In this document: one piece after another, positions 45,828 through 56,900 of the stretch | How positions within the stretch are numbered: the stretch's first letter is position 1 | How the letters are laid out: the number at the start of each line of letters is the position of its first letter | Assembly: GCF_021729155.1 (NCBI RefSeq) | Contig: NZ_JAJQYA010000002.1 | Coordinates: forward strand, 62,001-126,000 | Length of the DNA stretch: 64,000 nucleotides | Direction of reading: 5' to 3' | Source of the DNA: Membranihabitans marinus | GTDB taxonomy: Bacteria > Bacteroidota > Bacteroidia > Chitinophagales > Saprospiraceae | The notes under the pieces: model-generated | Databases searched by the model: none | The model's input: only the letters and a program-made list of their open reading frames with translations | Told to the model about the DNA's origin: nothing | Translations under genes and position numbers: made by a program

Positions 45828-46826
45828 TTATACTGTAACGTAACTATTTTTATATATATAATTTGCAATTTGAACTGCATTTGTGGCTGCACCCTTTCTT
45901 AAGTTATCGGCTACGATCCACATATTCAATCCATTTTCTATCGAATCATCTCTTCGGATTCGACCTACATAAACACTGTTTTTACCTTTGGCGTATAAGG
46001 CCATGGGATATTCTTGATTTGCGTGATCATTTTGAACTTCTACACCTTCGGTTTGAGCTAGAATATCAATGACTTCATCGATTTCAAATCCCTGATTGAA
46101 TTCTACATTTACCGATTCGGAATGTCCTCCGTGTACTGGAACCCTGATAGCGGTTGCCGTTATTTTGATATTATTGTCTCCTAATATTTTTTGAGTTTCA
46201 TTGACCAATTTCATTTCTTCCTTGGTGTAGTGATTGTCCAAGAATACATCACAATGGGGAATGCAATTGTCAAATATTGGATGTGGATAGGCTGGATCAG
46301 CTACCTTTTCTCCTTTTTTTTCTGCCTCGTATTGTCTAACGGCTTTAACTCCTGTTCCCGTAATGGATTGATAGGTTGAGATAACCAATCTTTTAATCCC
46401 GAATCTCTTGTGAAGATTAGACAAAGCTAGAACCATTTGGATGGTTGAGCAATTGGGGTTGGCTATTATTTTGTCTTCTGCAGTTATGGTGTCTGCATTG
46501 ATTTCTGGTACGACTAATTTCTTAGTTGGATCCATTCTCCAAGCCGATGAATTGTCGATAACTATAGTGCCCACTTCTGCAAATTTGGGCGCCCAATCTA
46601 AAGAGGTTTGACCTCCAGCTGAAAAAATCGCAATATCCGGCTTCAAAGATACAGCTTCTTCCAACCCAATGATGGAATGAGACTTTCCTTTTACCTCCAC
46701 TTGTTTTCCAATCGATTTCTCAGAGGCTACTGGTAAAAGTTCACTGTATGGGAAGTCATATTCTTCCAGTACTTTACAGATCTCTGTACCAACCATGCCT
46801 GTAATTCCAACTACTGCTAATTTCAT
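45828..46826 (-). CDS. asd: Aspartate-semialdehyde dehydrogenase
   Basis: Asd reduces aspartyl phosphate to aspartate semialdehyde with NADPH, a branch point to lysine/diaminopimelate, threonine and methionine. The N-terminal Rossmann motif VGITGMVGTEICKVLEE, the SAGGQTS loop, the catalytic Cys in NPNCSTIQMV and VPVHGGHSESVNV are all present. At 332 residues it is normal. It is the first gene of the minus-strand operon with the coiled-coil gene and rlmB. Confidence 0.97.
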   Translation of the reverse strand: MKLAVVGITGMVGTEICKVLEEYDFPYSELLPVASEKSIGKQVEVKGKSHSIIGLEEAVSLKPDIAIFSAGGQTSLDWAPKFAEVGTIVIDNSSAWRMDPTKKLVVPEINADTITAEDKIIANPNCSTIQMVLALSNLHKRFGIKRLVISTYQSITGTGVKAVRQYEAEKKGEKVADPAYPHPIFDNCIPHCDVFLDNHYTKEEMKLVNETQKILGDNNIKITATAIRVPVHGGHSESVNVEFNQGFEIDEVIDILAQTEGVEVQNDHANQEYPMALYAKGKNSVYVGRIRRDDSIENGLNMWIVADNLRKGAATNAVQIANYIYKNSYVTV

Positions 46827-46903: not shown

Positions 46904-49141
46904 ATGTACATTTCTTTGATTCATTCCCGTCAGCAGCGTCCAAATCTCAAATTATTATTAGTTGATTTGAAGATCTTACTATGTGTTATTATTTGCATAT
47001 TGGGGATTTCCCATTCGATATTTGGGACTGTTCCCTGTTCTGGCGTAAATCTATTGGAAGATAAAGAATCATGGCATGGTGACCTTCAACATTTTGATAG
47101 ACAGGGTCATCAGTGGATCTTAGCGGATAAAAACGCTCAAGAAAGCCGAATGGATATTAATTGGCCCATAGATAGGAAGGGACTATCTTTAAATTTTACT
47201 ATGGATTTTCCACCTTCAGATAACAATTATTTTGAGTTTGGGTGGATGTATAACGACATTAGCGATACCAGCTCGATTACATTTAGAATTGGTAGATCAG
47301 GACGAGGAGACGGAATTATGATTATCAATGAGGAAGAAAATATGGATAATGTCGATGAAATATTCCAAGGTCAATTTCAAGATGGAGGTGTAAATGTTTA
47401 TTTGGATTTGTCATTTGTCGGTTCCAATATACTGATGACTTTAAATGGACATGATCAGACTTCCCTAGCCCTACCTTGGACGAATGAGGTCGAGTTAACC
47501 TTCTTTTTTCGGATAGTTTACACTACGTCTAGAGCCGACAAATGGGTTCTTCATAAATTGACTCAGTACAGTTTAGGTATTAATCATTTATCCTCCGAGG
47601 TGGATCGAGGTGAATTAATAGTCACAGAATGGATGTTAGATGGAGATTTGCCAGCCTTTATTGAATTGTTGAATTACAGCGATAAAATTCTTTGCCTACA
47701 TGCCGTGGATCTCATCTTAGGGGGAATATGGATAAAAATGCCCAACTTAGTCCTTGCCCCCTATGAATACGCGGTATTGTCTGACGATAGTTCTAGTTAC
47801 TGGTCATCTAGAGATATTCAACCATTGTTTATTGGTGAATTGCCTAGGGTGGAATCCATAGAGTCCAATGGATGGCTGAAAAATTACAATGGGAGTATCC
47901 AATATTTACCCTTATTATCCTATCCTCATCCTCGGAGCAGTGTCGAAATGAAATCTATATTTCAATCCTGTCTCGTCGTCGGAAATTGGGCGTTGTCAGC
48001 AGATGAATTGGGAAGTCCAGGTCAGGATAATACTATATTTGAAACCACGGTACCTGTCCATCAGCCCACTGTGGTATTTCTGACGTCTAATCAGGCATCG
48101 ATTCAGTGGCCATATTGGATATCGGATCTCACATTAATGGCATCCTGGATTCAATCCCAATTGCCATTTAATGTAGAAGAAAACTCGGATAGTGGCAATA
48201 TGATGACTTTAAATATCGACGATGACAAAGGCTGGAGCCATGGTGATTCATTGGGTTTTGGGGGTACTTATGTGAACTGTAATGGAGATGTAGTGGTATG
48301 GGACACTGTAGTATATTATGTCAAAGGTCGACTACCCCATCGGGGCGAATTATTGGTATCGGAAATCATGTATAATCCCCATCCTGGTTGTCCGGAATAT
48401 ATAGAATTGTACAATACGACAAAAGATTATCTAGATCTTGAAGAAGTGGTATTGCAACTGGGAAATCAAAATCAGAAATTGTCACTGACCAATGATATGC
48501 CACCCTATGGGGTGTGGATTTTGACCCGTCATCCTGAAGAATTGTTAGATTGCTACCACAGTGCCCAATCCGAGGCCGTATTTGAGTATTCCTTGTATAC
48601 ATTGAATAATCTGGGATTGACTATGTCCTTGACCAACAGCGAGAACGAAGTGTTGGACGATGCTAGCTATGGAGTTGATGACATTCACCCATTTTGGCTA
48701 GATAGTCATGGAATATCATTGGAGAGGAGATTGTTTGGAACGGCAGATAGGGTGTGGAAATCCGGTTATAGGCAATACGGTTTCAATAGTGCATCATTTA
48801 TTCCGGAGGAAAATAAGAGGGCGGATCAACCGGAATTGTATTTGTCTACTCAGGTGATAACACCCGATGGAGACGGTCAACATGATAGGTTGATAATTTA
48901 TATCGGAGGGAGAGGCAATTACGGCAGTCTCACGATTAATATTTTTGATTTGAATGGGAAAAAAATAAATACCTTAGCAAATAATCTCCCCATACAAGAG
49001 GGTGATTTTATTATTTGGGATGGAAGAGATAGTCGATATAATCCAGCTCCGTCGGGATTATACTTAATCTGGGCTTACCATTTTGATGAATTAGGTTATG
49101 AAAAAACACATAAATTAACATGCGCATTGTCTCGACAGTAG
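46904..49141 (+). CDS. Exported protein with two lamin-tail domains and a gliding-type C-terminus
   Basis: This 745-residue protein has a signal sequence after a basic N-terminal extension (hydrophobic stretch about residues 20-41). Residues about 70-220 look like a laminin-G/concanavalin-like jelly roll. Two lamin-tail (LTD) domains follow: one beginning GELIVTEWMLDG with IELLNYSDKILCL, and a better conserved one beginning GELLVSEIMYNPHPG with YIELYNTTKDYLDLE. The C-terminus (YLSTQVITPDGDGQHDRLII, SLTINIFDLNGKKINTL, PSGLYLIWAY) combines gliding CHU_C and FlgD-like features, suggesting T9SS export. LTD domains in bacteria are often linked with membrane nucleases or hydrolases. Here the 3' end overlaps an EEP-fold gene by 22 bases. 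Confidence 0.85.
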   Translation: MYISLIHSRQQRPNLKLLLVDLKILLCVIICILGISHSIFGTVPCSGVNLLEDKESWHGDLQHFDRQGHQWILADKNAQESRMDINWPIDRKGLSLNFTMDFPPSDNNYFEFGWMYNDISDTSSITFRIGRSGRGDGIMIINEEENMDNVDEIFQGQFQDGGVNVYLDLSFVGSNILMTLNGHDQTSLALPWTNEVELTFFFRIVYTTSRADKWVLHKLTQYSLGINHLSSEVDRGELIVTEWMLDGDLPAFIELLNYSDKILCLHAVDLILGGIWIKMPNLVLAPYEYAVLSDDSSSYWSSRDIQPLFIGELPRVESIESNGWLKNYNGSIQYLPLLSYPHPRSSVEMKSIFQSCLVVGNWALSADELGSPGQDNTIFETTVPVHQPTVVFLTSNQASIQWPYWISDLTLMASWIQSQLPFNVEENSDSGNMMTLNIDDDKGWSHGDSLGFGGTYVNCNGDVVVWDTVVYYVKGRLPHRGELLVSEIMYNPHPGCPEYIELYNTTKDYLDLEEVVLQLGNQNQKLSLTNDMPPYGVWILTRHPEELLDCYHSAQSEAVFEYSLYTLNNLGLTMSLTNSENEVLDDASYGVDDIHPFWLDSHGISLERRLFGTADRVWKSGYRQYGFNSASFIPEENKRADQPELYLSTQVITPDGDGQHDRLIIYIGGRGNYGSLTINIFDLNGKKINTLANNLPIQEGDFIIWDGRDSRYNPAPSGLYLIWAYHFDELGYEKTHKLTCALSRQ

Positions 49142-50139
49142 GAGAATTTTACCTGTTTTTGGTAAAATTGGTACATATAAAATGGATTCAATGGCTAATG
49201 GTATCAGGTATTATCTGTCTTACTGCAGTTTGTATCCTACAGCCAGATATGGAGTATTTCAGATGGATATCTACTCAGACCGTACAGATTTTGCTTGCTT
49301 GTCTTTTTTTAGGAGTTTGTTTTTTGCTATTAAAAAGTAGATTATTGTCCTTTGTGGCGTTTGGAGCATGTACTTTCTTGTGTTTGTTTTTAAAAAATGC
49401 ATCGAATCTCTCCTTAAAAGTTATTCCTCAAAATGGAAATGATGGATTGATCTCACTTTTGCATTGCACCATGTCTGAAATTCAAGGAGAATCCACTTTT
49501 GATTTTTCAAGTCTTCTCAAGTTGGACAATGATATTATCGTGTTTCAAGAGTATACTCCGCAGTGGAAACAAATTATATTGCCTGAATTTGACTCTGTAT
49601 ACCAGTATAAATACGAGTTTTTGAGATTGGATAATTACGGTCAGTTAATAGTTAGCAAATATCCCATTGTCATGAGGGATACTATGGAGTTTAACGGGGT
49701 TCCAATTGCCAATATTACCGTTGCTTTATCCGAGGAGAAAAATATCAATATAATAGGACATTACAACCTTCCACCTTTGACAGAAGATTATCGATCGACT
49801 TCTAAAAAGGTTTTTTCCGAGTTGTCCAATTATATAAGACAACAGAAGATTCCTACCTTATATGTGGGAACGATCAATTATGCTCCCTGGGACAATGAAA
49901 TGGTGAAATTTAGATATTCTGGATTTCTAAACGACAGTAGAAAGGGTTTTTTCCCCACCTTATACGGAGCGGGAACTTCCTTTTTTGATTATCCCGTTGA
50001 TCATATTTTTTATAACGAATATTTGGAGTGCTTGGCTTTTAAAAAGGTGGAAAATGCTAATAATCAACGCATTGCCATTAGAGGTCAGTATCAATTAAAA
50101 AGTCGCGAATCTCTTGTTGATCTCAGTCAAGATGATTAG
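49120..50139 (+). CDS. Membrane protein with endonuclease/exonuclease/phosphatase (EEP) fold, probably degenerate
   Basis: This 339-residue protein has about three transmembrane helices in its first 95 residues, then an EEP-like domain. Recognisable pieces are the Glu in VFQEYTPQW (Glu144), IIGHYNLPPL, VGTINYAPWDNE (250-260) in the position of the GDFN motif, and YPVDHIFYN (Asp294, His295). The Asp of GDFN is Thr251, and the final SDHxP motif is replaced by AIRGQYQL, so hydrolysis by the usual mechanism is doubtful. The start overlaps the lamin-tail gene by 22 bases, indicating translational coupling. A shorter start (ATG at 49198) is possible. An active site built differently, or a binding role, remains open. 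Confidence 0.75.
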   Translation: MRIVSTVGEFYLFLVKLVHIKWIQWLMVSGIICLTAVCILQPDMEYFRWISTQTVQILLACLFLGVCFLLLKSRLLSFVAFGACTFLCLFLKNASNLSLKVIPQNGNDGLISLLHCTMSEIQGESTFDFSSLLKLDNDIIVFQEYTPQWKQIILPEFDSVYQYKYEFLRLDNYGQLIVSKYPIVMRDTMEFNGVPIANITVALSEEKNINIIGHYNLPPLTEDYRSTSKKVFSELSNYIRQQKIPTLYVGTINYAPWDNEMVKFRYSGFLNDSRKGFFPTLYGAGTSFFDYPVDHIFYNEYLECLAFKKVENANNQRIAIRGQYQLKSRESLVDLSQDD

Positions 50140-50187
50140 TAGAGTAATGATTTTTGGTTTTTGTACATATTATTGAGAATCCTAAAC

Positions 50188-50643
50188 GTGAAATTAAATA
50201 AACAATTATTGGCTTTTGATTCTATACCCATTTCCTTGTGGTATGCCATAAGTCAATTGCGTGAGCAGGTTTTTGTGGTCGAGCAATCATGTGCATATTT
50301 GGATGCAGATGGTCGAGATCAGTTGGCTCATCATTTAATTTGGCAAGATGATGGCGGGATTTTGGCTTATTGTCGGATATTAAATCCCGGCCTTACAAAA
50401 ATATCTGAAAGTCCCTATGTTTCTATAGGCAGAGTAGTGGTAGATTCCCGATTTCGCGGAATTGGCTTAGGAGAAGAATTGATGAAGTCAGCTATTGAAC
50501 ACTGTCGTACATTATATGGTCACAATCCTATTTATATATCTGCTCAGCTACATTTGCAAGGATTTTATGAAAAACTGGGATTTAAAGCCGTGGGAGAAAG
50601 TTATCTGGAGGATGGTATCCCTCATATCTCTATGTTACTGTAA
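50188..50643 (+). CDS. GNAT-family acetyltransferase (ElaA-like)
   Basis: This GNAT-fold N-acetyltransferase of the ElaA type has LWYAISQLREQVFVVEQ near the N-terminus and the acetyl-CoA loop VDSRFRGIGLGEELM, where the R-x-x-G-x-G/A pattern is visible. QLHLQGFYEKLGFKAVGESYLEDGIPH closes it. The physiological acceptor is unknown. I placed the start at GTG 50188; a TTG at 50161 gives nine more residues and is the alternative. It lies 48 bases after the EEP gene and before a 274-base gap, so it could be the last gene of that operon. Confidence 0.88.
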   Translation: MKLNKQLLAFDSIPISLWYAISQLREQVFVVEQSCAYLDADGRDQLAHHLIWQDDGGILAYCRILNPGLTKISESPYVSIGRVVVDSRFRGIGLGEELMKSAIEHCRTLYGHNPIYISAQLHLQGFYEKLGFKAVGESYLEDGIPHISMLL

Positions 50644-50917: not shown

Positions 50918-52255
50918 ATGAAATATAGATTACTCCTCTGCTTATACATTAGTTTTATGGGGATTGTAACGGCTCAAAATTCATTTAACCTTTCAGAGGC
51001 GATGGATTATGCCCTGCAGCACCAAATCGAGATTCAAAAGGCGCGATTGAACATTGAAGATGCCGATTATCAGATTAAAGAAATATTGGCCTTAGCCATT
51101 CCAACCCTAAAAGGAAATGTGGATTACCAAAGGTATTTGCAATTGCCTACCCAAATTATCCCGCAGGGAGCCTTTTTTGCCGGAGACCAAAATAATCCCC
51201 CCAATCCAGCGGAAGATATCGGAGTGCAATTTGGTGTCAATAATTCACTAACGGCTGGTTTGTCTTTCAATGCATTGCTGTTTGACGGAAGTGTTTTTGT
51301 GGGAATCCAAGCATCGAGGTTGGCACGCTCCTTGGCCAATTCACAGATTGATGTAGTGGAAAGGGATATAAGAGAGAATGTTATTAAATCGTATTTGGCA
51401 ATACTAATCGCCGATCACATGAGTGAGATTATTGATTTGAACATTAAGAATCTAGAGCAGACCTACTTTGAGACCAATGAAATGTATAAAAGTGGATTTT
51501 TGGAAAAACTGGACGTAGATAGGCTGAAATATTCAATATCTAATCTGGAAATGGAAGCGGAGAACAATGAAAATATGATTTATGCTGCCAAAAATATACT
51601 TAAACTACAGATGGGATACCCCATGGATGAAGAGATAGAAGTTAGTGAAAAATTGGAAGATTATATTCAAGTTGATGAAGCCGTCAACCTTCTTTCAGAA
51701 ACCTATAGTTTTCAAAATAGACCAGAATATGAGACATTGTCGATAACAGAGGATTTGAGAGAGATGGATGTCAAACAACTTCGCTTTGGATATTTGCCAA
51801 CCTTGTCGTTTTTTGCCAATTACAATCAACAATTACAAGCGAATAAATTGAAGGATGGTTTATGGTTTCCCTACTCCATAGTCGGCGGTTCTTTGGCCAT
51901 ACCCATATTTGATGGAAGAGACAGAGCTATGAAAATTGAGCGCGCCAACGTGAGATTAAAGTTGCATCAATTGGATATGGAAAATATCGAGCGATCTATG
52001 CAGGTAGAAGTGGACAATGCCAAAAGGGATCTCAGTTCGGCATTGAATAGAATAGATGATAGTAAGAACAATATGACCCTAGCCGATGATATATACAAAG
52101 TGACCCAAATTAAATACAAGGAAGGGGTTGGTTCCAGCGTGGAATTGAGTCAAGCAGAATCGGCATTGTATCAAGCACAGTCAAAATACATCAATGCTTT
52201 GTATGACTTTTCAGTAGCCAAAGCTAATTTGGAAAAAGCATTAGGAAAATTATAA
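50918..52255 (+). CDS. TolC-family outer-membrane efflux protein
   Basis: This 445-residue protein forms the outer-membrane channel of a tripartite efflux pump. It has a signal peptide (residues 1-19, cleavage near VTAQ). Two repeated halves of long helices alternate with beta strands: FNLSEAMDYALQHQIEIQKA, and later PIFDGRDRAMKIERANVRLK with QIKYKEGVGSSVELSQAES, the classic repeat of the family. It is the first gene of the efflux operon; the adaptor begins 12 bases after its stop. Confidence 0.93.
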   Translation: MKYRLLLCLYISFMGIVTAQNSFNLSEAMDYALQHQIEIQKARLNIEDADYQIKEILALAIPTLKGNVDYQRYLQLPTQIIPQGAFFAGDQNNPPNPAEDIGVQFGVNNSLTAGLSFNALLFDGSVFVGIQASRLARSLANSQIDVVERDIRENVIKSYLAILIADHMSEIIDLNIKNLEQTYFETNEMYKSGFLEKLDVDRLKYSISNLEMEAENNENMIYAAKNILKLQMGYPMDEEIEVSEKLEDYIQVDEAVNLLSETYSFQNRPEYETLSITEDLREMDVKQLRFGYLPTLSFFANYNQQLQANKLKDGLWFPYSIVGGSLAIPIFDGRDRAMKIERANVRLKLHQLDMENIERSMQVEVDNAKRDLSSALNRIDDSKNNMTLADDIYKVTQIKYKEGVGSSVELSQAESALYQAQSKYINALYDFSVAKANLEKALGKL

Positions 52256-52267
52256 AACAATATAACA

Positions 52268-53470
52268 ATGAAATACGCATATTTAATACTAATACTTAGT
52301 CTTCTGTATTCATGTGGTAGCACTACTTCAGAGGTGAGTGAAATCAATGTCAATGACATGGCGCTTTCAGAATTGAAGTCTTATCTAAAAACTAAAAAAG
52401 ATGAGGTTAAAAATCTTCAATCTACGATTGCCAATATAGAGGATAGAATGGCAGAACTCGATCCTACTTCGGTTCAAAAAGTGGCCAAAAGGGTAACGAC
52501 TTTGCCCATTGTTAAATCAGAATTTAAACATTTTATTTCGGTACAAGGCCTATTGGAAGCCAATGATGTAATCGCCATCAATGCTGAGACTGGGGGAAGA
52601 ATGCTGCAGTTAAAGATCGACGAAGGAGATTATGTAAAAAAAGGCGATTTGGTAGCAGTATTAGATACAGAAAATTTTGACAAACAGCGAGATGAAATTC
52701 TTAAGGCTTTGGAATTGGCTAAAGAAGTATACGAAAGAAGAAAGAGACTTTGGGATCAAAAAATAGGTTCTGAGATCGAATATTTACAATCTAAGAATGA
52801 TGTAGAGCGAATGGAAAAAAGTCTGGAGACTTTAGACTTCCAACAAACAAAAGGTCAAGTATATGCCCCTGTATCTGGTGTAGTGGATGTAATCAATATT
52901 CACCCCGGAGAAATGGTTTCTCCAGGCATGCCTATAGCCAATATATTAGATGTGAGTCGACTTATTGCCACGGCTGATGTTCCCGAGAATTATTTGGGTA
53001 GTGTGAAGGTAGGCGATAGAGTCCTGCTTAATTTTCCTTCTATAGATTATTCAGTGGAAGGTAGGATCAATTTAATTGGAAATACCATTGATGCGGCCAA
53101 TAGGACATTTAAAATAGAAGTGAGGGTAGCGAGAACTACTAAAAATTTAAAGCCTAATCTCTTGACAGAAATTAAGATTAACGATAAAACCATTGCCGAT
53201 GTGATAAGTATTCCAGTAAACAGTGTACTGCAAGAAGTAAGTGGGAAAGAATATGTAATGGTGGTCAATCAGTCTGGAAGTACAGCAGTTGCTGAGAAAA
53301 AATATGTTACCAGAGGTCCATTTAACAATGAGGAAGTGGTGATTACATCGGGTTTGGAAGAAGGACAAGTCTTGGTCAATATAGGAGCTCAAAACTTGGT
53401 AGATAAAGATGCTTTGGAAGTCATAAGTACTAAGGAATTGGATGAAGCGAAAAAAATAATAAATGAGTAA
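52268..53470 (+). CDS. RND efflux periplasmic adaptor (membrane fusion protein)
   Basis: This 400-residue lipoprotein has a lipobox LLYSC (the lipid-carrying Cys at residue 16). A coiled-coil stretch is followed by a lipoyl-type domain (GGRMLQLKIDEGDYVKKGDL), an alpha-hairpin (ALELAKEVYERRKRLWDQ), the second lipoyl half (GQVYAPVSGVVDVINIHPGE) and beta-barrel domains (ADVPENYLGSVKVGDRV, NVQ-like ending GAQNLVDKDALEV). It couples the RND pump to TolC. Its end overlaps the pump gene by eight bases. Confidence 0.94.
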   Translation: MKYAYLILILSLLYSCGSTTSEVSEINVNDMALSELKSYLKTKKDEVKNLQSTIANIEDRMAELDPTSVQKVAKRVTTLPIVKSEFKHFISVQGLLEANDVIAINAETGGRMLQLKIDEGDYVKKGDLVAVLDTENFDKQRDEILKALELAKEVYERRKRLWDQKIGSEIEYLQSKNDVERMEKSLETLDFQQTKGQVYAPVSGVVDVINIHPGEMVSPGMPIANILDVSRLIATADVPENYLGSVKVGDRVLLNFPSIDYSVEGRINLIGNTIDAANRTFKIEVRVARTTKNLKPNLLTEIKINDKTIADVISIPVNSVLQEVSGKEYVMVVNQSGSTAVAEKKYVTRGPFNNEEVVITSGLEEGQVLVNIGAQNLVDKDALEVISTKELDEAKKIINE

Positions 53471-56400
53471 GATAGTTGACAAGATAAAAGACAATTTAAG
53501 AGAGTTTAAATTGTCGTCCTTTGCTGTGGATAATGCCACGAGTATCTTCCTGATGACGGTTATGATATTTATCTTTGGTCTTGACTCATACAACAGTATG
53601 CCAAAAGAGCAATATCCAGAAGTATCTTTTCCTACCGTATATGTCAATACCCCATATTTTGGGAATACTGCAGCTGATATAGAAAATTTGGTTACCAGGC
53701 CTATCGAGCAAGAATTGCAATCTATTGTCGGTGTAGATAATATCACTTCTTCTTCTGTACAGGATTTTTCTGTAATCATTGTAGAGTTTGATGCCGATAG
53801 AGATATTGATGAGGCTGTGCGCAAAGTAAAGGATGCTATTGATTTGGCTAAGAGTGAATTGCCTACAGACTTGACGACTGATCCTCAGGTTTTGGAGATC
53901 GACTTGTCTCAGATTCCCATAATGACGGTCAATGTATCTGGTGATTATACCATAGATCAGTTAAAAACCTACGCTGAATATTTGGAAGAGGAATTTGAAA
54001 ATCTCTCTGAAGTATCAGAAGCTGATATTAAAGGTGCACTCGACAGAGAAGTGAAGATAGATGTAGATTTGCCGAAGATGGAATCTTTAAAGGTTTCTTT
54101 TACCGATATAGAAAACGCGGTTAAAGCAGAAAACCTTACGATGTCTGGAGGAGAAATCGTCAGTGATAACTTTAGACGCGGTGTGCGTATTATTGGAGAG
54201 TTTACCAATATGGATCAGATTCGCAATATGATCGTTAAGAGTGAGTCTCAACGGCCCATTTATCTTAAGGATATAGCTACAGTGACCTATGGTTATGAAG
54301 AGCTCAAAAGTATTGCTCGATCGGATGGGTTCTCTGTTGTCTCGATTGATATCATTAAACGATCTGGAGAAAACCTTATAGCAGCAGCGGATAAGGTCAA
54401 AGCCATTGTTGAAGAAGCGGAGAATAATGTCCTTCCCGCTGATTTGAAGGTCAGTATCTTTAATGATCAATCCGAAAATACCAAGAGAGAGGTTTCAAAC
54501 CTTGAAAATTCTATAATATCAGGTATGATATTGGTGATCTTGGTCTTACTCTTTTTTATGGGCTTGCGAAATGCAACCTTTGTTGGTGTGGCCATACCCT
54601 TATCGATGTTGACTGGGATAATGTGGCTGTATTTGACAGGAGTGACCATGAATATGATGGTGTTGTTCGCCCTTATTTTGGCATTGGGGATGTTGGTAGA
54701 TAATGCCATTGTGGTGGTAGAGAATATATATCGTTATTTTCAAGAGGGATATTCGGCCAAAGATGCTGCCAAGTTTGGTGCAGGAGAGGTCGCAGTTCCC
54801 ATTATCGCCAGTACGGCTACGACATTAGCAGCCTTTTTGCCCTTGGCTTTTTGGCCTGGTATTGTCGGTGAATTTATGAAATATCTTCCGATAACCCTGA
54901 TCTTGGTCTTGTCTTCGTCTCTTATTGTTGCCCTGGTTATTAATCCAGTGTTTACCGCCTATTTTATGAAGGTGGATGAAAAAGCTGATTCTGCTGAGGA
55001 GCGCAAGAAAAAAACCAGAAACATCGGGATATTTATATTAGGAGCCATAGTTTTTGGATTTGTCTTTCATTCTATTGGATTGGATTGGGCTAGAAATTTA
55101 TTGGGTATAACTGCTGTGATTTCCACCATAAACTTCTTTGCATTGCGACCGGCTAGTTTTTATTTTCAGAACAAGGTGATGCCGGCATTAGAGCGAGGAT
55201 ATGATTGGTTTGTAGGAAAGGCATTGTACAAAAAAATGCCAATTGTGGTATTTGTAGGCACATTTGTCTTAATGATATGTTCTATTATGTTGTTGGCGGT
55301 AAAATCACCGAAAGTTGTTTTCTTTCCCGATACCCAGCCCATTTATATCAATGTGTTTTTAGAATTGCCCATAGGCAGAGACATTGAAGCGACGGATAAA
55401 GCTGTGAGGATTGTAGAATCTCAGATAACTACAGTATTGGAACCCTATCAAGACGTAGTGGAATCGGTATTGACCCAAATTGGGGAAAATACCTCTGATC
55501 CCAATAGTACTCCAGAGCCTGGAGCTTCGCCCAATAAGGCTAGAATTACTGTGACCTTTGTGCCTGCCGATGAGCGAAATGGGGTGAAGACCTCAAAGAT
55601 TATGGAGGATATAAGGGCCAATCTAAAGAATATGCCTGGAGTTCAGATTGTGGTGGATCAAAATGCTGCTGGACCTCCGACAGGTAAACCTGTGAATATA
55701 GAGATACAAGGTGAAAATATTGATGAATTGGCTCAATTGTCTGAAGATCTCATCGCCTATGTGAATAAACAAAATATTCCGGGTATAGAGGAATTGAAGG
55801 CCGATGTAAAAATCGGTAAGCCCGAGTTGCTGATTCACATAGATAGAGAGGCTGCTCGAAGATATGAATTGTCGACTTATGCTATTGCCGATGCCTTGAG
55901 AACATCAGTCTACGGTAAAGAGGTATCCACCTATAAGGACGGGGAAGACGATTATCCCATTCAATTGAGATTGGATCCCAAGTACCGCAATAATGTGGGA
56001 GCATTGATGAATCAAAAAATCACTTTTAGAAATCCGGCTAATGGACAGTTAACTCAAGTGCCGATTTCAGCAGTAGCTACCGTGGAATATTCTTCTACTT
56101 ATAGTTCGATCAATCGAAAGGATTTGGAGCGTGCAATTACGATTTATTCCAATGTATTGGATGGTTACAATGCCAATGAAATTGTAGAAGAGGTGAAGGC
56201 GGTTTTTGCCGATTACAAAATGCCTAATGGCATATCCTATGCTTTCACAGGAGAGCAGGAGCAGCAAGCTGAGGATATGCAGTTCTTAAGTGGGGCCTTT
56301 ATATTATCTATATTTTTGATATTTATAATTTTGGTGAGTCAATTCAATTCGATAATATCGCCCTTTATAATTTTGATGTCAGTGTTTTTCAGTACCATTG

Positions 56401-56900
56401 GAGTATTCCTCGGTTACGTAGTGACGGGGTCAGACATCGCAGTTATCCTCACCGGTGTGGGTATTATATCGCTGGCTGGTATTGTGGTAAACAACGCCAT
56501 TGTATTGGTGGATTATATTAACCTATTGGTGACCAGACGCCGAAAAGAATTGGGTTTTGAAAACATGTGGATGTTGGACAAGTCCGATGTGAAATCAATG
56601 ATTATCAAAGGGGGAAGTACTAGGTTGAGACCGGTATTGCTAACGGCAATTACTACTATTTTGGGATTGATTCCATTGGCTATTGGGTTGAATATCAATT
56701 TCTTTACTATAATTTCAGACCTAGATGCTCAGTTTTTTATCGGTGGTGATAATAAAGATTTCTGGGGCCCAATGGCTTGGACGGTAATCTACGGTTTGAC
56801 CTTTTCTACCTTCCTTACCTTGGTTGTGATTCCGGCCATGTACTGGTTGGCCTATAGATTTATGTATATAATTAAAAATAGAAAATCTAAGAAAGCATAA
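53463..56900 (+). CDS. RND-family efflux permease
   Basis: This 1145-residue inner-membrane pump has the usual two halves, each with a large periplasmic domain (PN/PC: YPEVSFPTVYVNTPYFGNTA, and later RDIEATDKAVRIVESQ). Twelve or more transmembrane helices are expected. The TM4 motif is GMLVDNAIVVVENIYR, where AcrB has two Asp residues and this protein has Asp-Asn. The TM10 motif GIVVNNAIVLVDYINL lacks the AcrB Lys940 equivalent. Both variants are common in this Bacteroidota branch. An insert of about 90 residues with two extra hydrophobic segments (around FMKVDEKADSAEERKKKTRN) explains the extra length. The substrate is not predictable. Confidence 0.93.
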   Translation: MSKIVDKIKDNLREFKLSSFAVDNATSIFLMTVMIFIFGLDSYNSMPKEQYPEVSFPTVYVNTPYFGNTAADIENLVTRPIEQELQSIVGVDNITSSSVQDFSVIIVEFDADRDIDEAVRKVKDAIDLAKSELPTDLTTDPQVLEIDLSQIPIMTVNVSGDYTIDQLKTYAEYLEEEFENLSEVSEADIKGALDREVKIDVDLPKMESLKVSFTDIENAVKAENLTMSGGEIVSDNFRRGVRIIGEFTNMDQIRNMIVKSESQRPIYLKDIATVTYGYEELKSIARSDGFSVVSIDIIKRSGENLIAAADKVKAIVEEAENNVLPADLKVSIFNDQSENTKREVSNLENSIISGMILVILVLLFFMGLRNATFVGVAIPLSMLTGIMWLYLTGVTMNMMVLFALILALGMLVDNAIVVVENIYRYFQEGYSAKDAAKFGAGEVAVPIIASTATTLAAFLPLAFWPGIVGEFMKYLPITLILVLSSSLIVALVINPVFTAYFMKVDEKADSAEERKKKTRNIGIFILGAIVFGFVFHSIGLDWARNLLGITAVISTINFFALRPASFYFQNKVMPALERGYDWFVGKALYKKMPIVVFVGTFVLMICSIMLLAVKSPKVVFFPDTQPIYINVFLELPIGRDIEATDKAVRIVESQITTVLEPYQDVVESVLTQIGENTSDPNSTPEPGASPNKARITVTFVPADERNGVKTSKIMEDIRANLKNMPGVQIVVDQNAAGPPTGKPVNIEIQGENIDELAQLSEDLIAYVNKQNIPGIEELKADVKIGKPELLIHIDREAARRYELSTYAIADALRTSVYGKEVSTYKDGEDDYPIQLRLDPKYRNNVGALMNQKITFRNPANGQLTQVPISAVATVEYSSTYSSINRKDLERAITIYSNVLDGYNANEIVEEVKAVFADYKMPNGISYAFTGEQEQQAEDMQFLSGAFILSIFLIFIILVSQFNSIISPFIILMSVFFSTIGVFLGYVVTGSDIAVILTGVGIISLAGIVVNNAIVLVDYINLLVTRRRKELGFENMWMLDKSDVKSMIIKGGSTRLRPVLLTAITTILGLIPLAIGLNINFFTIISDLDAQFFIGGDNKDFWGPMAWTVIYGLTFSTFLTLVVIPAMYWLAYRFMYIIKNRKSKKA

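Follow-up and report, generated by a model that had tools for sequence, protein, structure and literature searches.

Within a 64,000-nucleotide stretch of a Membranihabitans genome (Saprospiraceae, Bacteroidota; hereafter the window; assembly GCF_021729155.1, contig NZ_JAJQYA010000002.1, positions 62,001 to 126,000), a gene at 49120..50139 on the forward strand encodes a protein of 339 aa with the predicted fold of the endonuclease/exonuclease/phosphatase (EEP) superfamily, whose catalytic residues have in large part been lost, both here and, to varying degrees, in its relatives across the window's bacterial family. Directly upstream on the same strand lies a gene for a 745-aa protein with a lamin-tail domain (LTD; 46904..49141). 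The residue losses and the conservation of gene order around the EEP gene are established, and we tentatively propose that this pseudo-EEP is a membrane-anchored member of a lineage-wide group that would bind, rather than cut, a phosphorylated ligand of the cell envelope.

The losses are best followed over the eight positions that we scored: an Asn, a Glu, a His or Tyr, the Asp and Asn of the GDFN motif, a further Asp, and the Asp and His of the SDH motif, which we take to be N68, E96, Y171 (or His), D210, N212, D283, D308 and H309 in APE1 numbering. Aligned in this way, the window's protein reads T-E-Y-T-N-D-Q-R, and thus lacks the full set of active EEP hydrolases. Glu144, at a metal-ligand position (49549..49551, forward strand, as are all positions of this protein), is kept, as are Asp294 and His295 (49999..50004); Thr117 occupies the N68 position; GTIN replaces GDFN at residues 250-253 (49867..49878), with Thr251 in place of the Asp and Asn253 retained; and the site of the SDHxP motif has become N315-Q316-R317-I318-A319, the Ser-Asp-His itself having given way to Asn315-Gln316-Arg317 (50062..50070). 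An earlier note on this DNA had likewise read the kept Glu144, Asp294 and His295, the GTIN and the missing SDHxP. According to a figure legend in PMC3143120, APE1 D210N is catalytically inactive, and the nucleotide incision repair (NIR) activity of APE1 D308A is highly reduced, not absent. By the effects given in that legend, the window's protein should be inactive, while a minority of its relatives may not be. We therefore regard it as very probably catalytically dead, and the suggestion of the same note that it may act as a binding protein looks more likely, given what has been lost from the sequences of the window and of its relatives.

A profile built from 22 EEP relatives found matches in 229 of the 298 genomes of the window's family (f1 in our genome set), spanning 96 of 112 genera and including weak matches to other EEPs; the remaining 69 genomes gave none. 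The close clade is represented by 73 fetched loci, most of them from different genera, admitted either at 225 bits or more or by an LTD gene within 1.5 kb (L173 and L174 entered through the LTD alone), and residue groups were compared after leaving out the fragment L053 together with a pair of matches at 19 and 37 bits. Not one of the 73 clade members keeps the full catalytic set, whereas all 15 distant EEP proteins do. The SDH Asp survives in a single member, whose row lacks D210, D283 and H309, and one more row has a gap at this position; 41 members lack the GDFN Asp (D210) and 34 the SDH His (H309), with 26 lacking the two together and 49 at least one of them; in 14, the SDH Asp is the only loss. 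Other parts of the site persist: the E96-type Glu (Glu144) in 66 of the 73, including 44 of the 49 that lack the GDFN Asp or the SDH His, the Asp294-type Asp in 57 and the Asn253-type Asn in 58. Indeed, Glu144, Pro218, Arg274 and the Gly319-type Gly are 90-99% conserved in relatives that are 23-49% identical and sit on long end branches.

The same picture holds where the gene pair itself is preserved, a point that the earlier note had raised: none of the 54 relatives with an LTD gene within 1.5 kb upstream keeps the full set, so that no full-set homologue was found in the same position among these loci, and 18 of them keep the GDFN Asp together with the SDH His. Two of nine intermediate relatives do carry the full set, L052 (family f6) and L055, whilst the four intermediates of family f14 read SNH at the SDH motif and Thr in place of the His or Tyr, with D210 kept. 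L052 is also the nearest full-set relative that lies close to a diacylglycerol kinase gene (dgkA, to which we return below); there, two genes separate EEP from dgkA, and LTD is absent. As a side observation, four of the five fetched members of genus g67 (L166, L169, L170 and L171) have Asn at each of three positions, those of the His/Tyr, the GDFN Asp and the DH Asp, an unusually uniform pattern.

How often the residues were lost can be gauged from a quick tree, inferred with the eight catalytic positions masked and read without a known root. This tree leaves 51 of its 94 inner branches open, takes three changes to account for the clade, and places L131, L054 and L067 with uncertainty. Loss of D308 requires 4 changes on this tree, against a mean of 17.6 after shuffling, D210 requires 20 (against 31.9) and H309 requires 17 (against about 29); the well-supported branches force at least two, five and five changes, respectively. 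These counts indicate that the SDH Asp was probably lost early and the other residues repeatedly. The clade itself probably arose once. Judged by sequence, then, this is a pseudoenzyme lineage in which degeneration is lineage-wide rather than confined to one broken gene. Local decay of a single gene was considered and is ruled out, since the losses are clade-wide and no stop falls inside the matched stretch in 133 of the 150 EEP matches listed.

The fold is predicted with confidence, in line with the earlier note's assignment. The PF03372 profile matches the protein at 34.1 bits (cut-off 24.5, E 3.1e-8), and an AlphaFold2 model with a mean predicted local distance difference test (pLDDT) score of 88.7 places an EEP-fold domain at residues 108-327 (49441..50100). 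Foldseek pairs this model with TDP2 (E 1.2e-12), and VIA aligns it with an EEP protein at Z 22.9 (root-mean-square deviation, rmsd, 2.8 over 222 aligned residues), with human neutral sphingomyelinase at Z 22.8 and with APE1 at Z 20.5. The fold searches covered PDB fold libraries, where the absence of other families is uninformative; PDB sequences searched with a profile yielded only weak hits to EEP proteins (best E 0.01), and NCBIfam models match neither the window's EEP nor the EEP and DgkA proteins of the sister species M. maritimus. A shared EEP fold shows no function in itself. Ahead of the domain, hydropathy predicts three membrane helices within residues 20-94 (49177..49401), modelled at 21-40, 54-70 and 74-94. 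The positively charged residues 72 and 74 fall between helices 2 and 3, an arrangement that favours a C-terminal domain on the periplasmic side, which is probably where it lies.

A hint as to what such a domain might bind comes from its neighbours. In 27 loci that have no close LTD, the commonest neighbour is a gene for a prokaryotic diacylglycerol kinase (PF01219, E 1.9e-36), found in 17 and usually right after EEP. This dgkA gene comes immediately after EEP in 36 of the 73 clade loci and in five of the nine intermediates, including all four from f14, and in none of 17 distant EEP loci, a count that includes the two weak matches of 19 and 37 bits. Among the matches listed, 68 of the 75 genomes for which both places are given have it immediately downstream of EEP in the same orientation, the exceptions being G012, G005, G225, G004, G296, G181 and G077; with the fetched loci added, the figure is 73 of 86 genomes. 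There is one copy of dgkA in each genome that has it, with a single exception among 214. In M. maritimus the open reading frames (ORFs) form an overlapping chain, LTD-EEP-dgkA-GNAT, and the other sister (M. marinus) has the same order. The window's genome (G000), searched with PF01219, gave no match, though in both sister species dgkA directly follows EEP: the window's genome has lost it. Beyond f1, EEP directly precedes dgkA in four of 32 fetched dgkA loci, all four from f14; flanks of roughly 1.5 kb around dgkA held no EEP in 24 of the loci L257-L283, nor in L219, L220, L221 and L223. A separate observation is that in L191, L192 and L194 (genomes G016, G022 and G003) dgkA directly follows LTD and the genome has no clear member of the EEP clade, which is what the loss of an intervening EEP would leave behind.

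Escherichia coli DgkA recycles diacylglycerol, and a Gram-positive homologue acts on undecaprenol. The linkage to dgkA would favour a lipid or polyprenyl phosphate as the ligand, and we can picture the pseudo-EEP as follows. Three membrane helices would hold an EEP-fold domain that probably faces the periplasm; its hydrolytic centre appears to have been taken apart, leaving in place the fold together with some of the pocket (Glu144, Asn253, Asp294); and the domain would bind a phosphorylated envelope ligand, perhaps a polyprenyl phosphate or the head group of a phospholipid. In the sister species, the LTD-EEP-dgkA-GNAT cluster next to asd could reflect a joint function, whereas in the window's species, with dgkA gone, the protein would act without DgkA, perhaps together with the LTD protein. 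Taken together, the EEP-dgkA gene order suggests a shared pathway and no strict complex.

Several observations weigh against this preferred reading of a lipid-linked binding protein. Of the 150 EEP genomes among the matches listed, 98 have dgkA and 52 (the window's and 51 of the 149 others) have no detectable copy, which means that EEP can do without DgkA. The adjacency is also weaker in further genomes read from fetched loci: of 23 dgkA-bearing genomes beyond the matches listed, 11 could be placed in this way, and dgkA lies next to EEP in just five of them, which slightly weakens the link. Nor does the number of kept residues differ with dgkA adjacency (means of 5.08 and 5.00 of 8). The 14 relatives that lack the SDH Asp alone may, as far as their sequences tell, still be active. 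Finally, Cys304 and Phe307, typical of the clade, are no sign of a new function, because the full-set L052 has them too. Cys304 itself (50029-50031) is conserved in 96% of the 73 clade members and also occurs in L053.

A variant of the same idea, which we consider unlikely, would make the pseudo-EEP a dedicated accessory subunit of DgkA, presenting or sensing its lipid (diacylglycerol, undecaprenol or a ceramide product) from the periplasmic side, and later freed in lineages such as the window's that have dropped dgkA and kept the LTD gene. Were it true, an enzyme would have turned into a receptor, regulating a bacterial lipid kinase.

Could the protein instead still be an enzyme, one of altered chemistry that slowly hydrolyses phosphodiesters or phosphomonoesters with its remaining Glu, Asn and Asp? 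We find this improbable. The retention of these three residues in most relatives and the 14 members that miss nothing but the SDH Asp are in its favour, and so is the residual NIR activity that the legend in PMC3143120 gives for APE1 D308A. The window's protein, however, has replacements at the GDFN Asp, the SDH Asp, the SDH His and the N68 position, the same legend describes APE1 D210N as inactive, and the losses recur over the tree. To an equally slight degree we credit the opposite extreme, in which the domain no longer has any ligand role, serving as a scaffold or simply drifting, with gene order inherited by hitchhiking. The 69 family genomes without a match, the low identities and long end branches, and the persistence of EEP in genomes without dgkA would all sit comfortably with drift, whereas the scarcity of stops, the near-invariance of Glu144, Pro218, Arg274 and the Gly319-type Gly, and the retention of Glu144 in nearly all relatives that have lost the GDFN Asp or SDH His would not.

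The LTD gene is the second recurrent neighbour. The overlap of 22 bases that the earlier note described between the two genes (49120..49141, forward strand) is borne out by the ORF coordinates and is identical in both sister species, in which the EEP starts with MRIV or MRFV; the overlap suggests that the pair may be translationally coupled. Of the 73 loci, 54 have a same-strand LTD gene no more than 1.5 kb upstream of EEP; it overlaps EEP in 11, lies 0-100 bases away in 31 and is further off in 12. Gene starts here are the ORF caller's first start codons, and overlaps other than the 22 bases of the genus are rough. One of the LTD matches (L104) is weak, at 54 bits, and in L042 a GNAT gene stands between LTD and EEP. 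The remaining 19 loci have no LTD within 1.5 kb, some of them lying near contig ends. On the other side of the LTD gene, asd (aspartate-semialdehyde dehydrogenase; 45828..46826, reverse strand, in the window) is a recurrent divergent neighbour, on the opposite strand in 47 of the 73 clade loci, with some of the rest again near contig ends. LTD also stands beside asd with no adjoining EEP in L192, L194, L195 and L199, from genomes without an EEP-clade match (G022, G003, G033 and G117), and in family f14 (L202, L204, L205), and the asd-LTD pair therefore looks like the older arrangement. The earlier idea that LTD is the specific functional partner of EEP is weakened by LTD genes beside asd without EEP and by dgkA, a second partner that recurs across families and that the window has lost.

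The LTD protein appears to be built for the cell surface. After a hydrophobic start within residues 13-46, as read from hydropathy, its structure model, of moderate quality (mean pLDDT 76.1, predicted template-modelling score, pTM, 0.48), shows a concanavalin-A/galectin-like beta sandwich at residues 43-227 (47030..47584) that resembles carbohydrate-recognition domains of the Emp46/ERGIC-53 type (VIA Z 16.6 against Emp46p, rmsd 3.0, 176 aligned) and also galectins (Z about 14); Pfam and NCBIfam scans gave no sign of this lectin-like domain. Two lamin-tail domains had been claimed. The C-terminal one, at residues 480-590 (48341..48673), is confirmed as PF00932 (43.1 bits, cut-off 34.3, E 5.9e-11), while the region of the first, scanned alone, reaches 13.8 bits (E 0.076) and is plausible, not confirmed. 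The protein ends in a CHU_C/FlgD-like domain resembling type IX sorting signals (residues 649-722, 48848..49069), below the cut-offs in the window (CHU_C 23.3 bits against 27, TIGR04131 17.1 bits against 35); among 15 aligned LTD members, 14 match CHU_C at E<=0.01 and four match TIGR04131. By its sequence the protein is a candidate type IX secretion cargo, and it looks secreted, surface-located and possibly glycan-binding. Relatives of it occur in all 45 genomes searched, some as weak matches only.

This leaves the proposal of the earlier note that the pair may be a surface system binding or processing nucleic acid or phospho-substrates. Such a system would amount to an LTD-EEP nuclease of the ExeM kind divided between two proteins, and we rate it as the least probable of the explanations: the close upstream LTD in 54 loci agrees with it, and the background that bacterial LTDs often accompany membrane hydrolases is indeed found in an excerpt of PMC6085458, yet LTD also occurs beside asd without EEP, 19 EEPs lack a close LTD, the N-terminal part of the LTD protein is modelled as lectin-like, Pfam matches down to the level of E 1 include no OB-type domain, and ExeM without its LTD, in the same excerpt, still degraded DNA, slowly in vitro. 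Nothing in the analysis points to nucleic-acid binding or processing by the pair, though no search was aimed at it.

Downstream in the window, a GNAT gene (50161..50643, forward strand; best NCBIfam model PRK10314, below its cut-off) starts 21 bases past EEP. Beyond the locus, at 50918-56900, ORFs resemble TolC, membrane-fusion and RND efflux genes, named by sight of their translations.

We found no report, in the open-licence PMC literature, of an EEP that is degenerate throughout a family and linked both to dgkA and to an asd-LTD locus, and nothing useful there on undecaprenol kinase or DgkA in Bacteroidetes. A hydrolase fold that a large family has kept, though the residues of its catalytic site went step by step and on many occasions, offers a natural series for the change from enzyme to binding protein, and the recurrent junction with a lipid-kinase gene is a concrete, testable hint of function. 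Moreover, the reshuffled neighbourhoods, in which EEP occurs with LTD, with dgkA, with both or with neither, let the two partnerships be separated.

EEP, LTD and DgkA are all known families. With the PF03372 enzymes TDP2, APE1 and neutral sphingomyelinase, the window's EEP shares its fold, the order of its motifs and the Glu144, Asn253 and Asp294 positions; unlike them, it has other residues in place of N68, the GDFN Asp and the Asp and His of SDH, and carries three predicted N-terminal membrane helices. DgkA (PF01219) has no sequence relation to EEP, its gene following EEP in those 73 of 86 genomes and being absent from the window's, and the substrate in this family is putative. The LTD protein resembles other PF00932 proteins with a type-IX-like CHU_C/FlgD_ig C-terminus in its lamin-tail domain and sorting-like end, and differs from them in its modelled N-terminal lectin-like domain and its recurrent place beside asd. 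A further comparison is with ExeM of Shewanella oneidensis, an extracellular nuclease that, according to the excerpt of PMC6085458, is made up of LTD, OB-type and EEP parts. Like ExeM, the window's pair would combine LTD and EEP domains outside the cytoplasm; unlike ExeM, a single chain whose EEP part is needed for activity, it consists of two proteins from separate genes, with no OB-type match and an EEP that is degenerate and, by prediction, anchored in the membrane.

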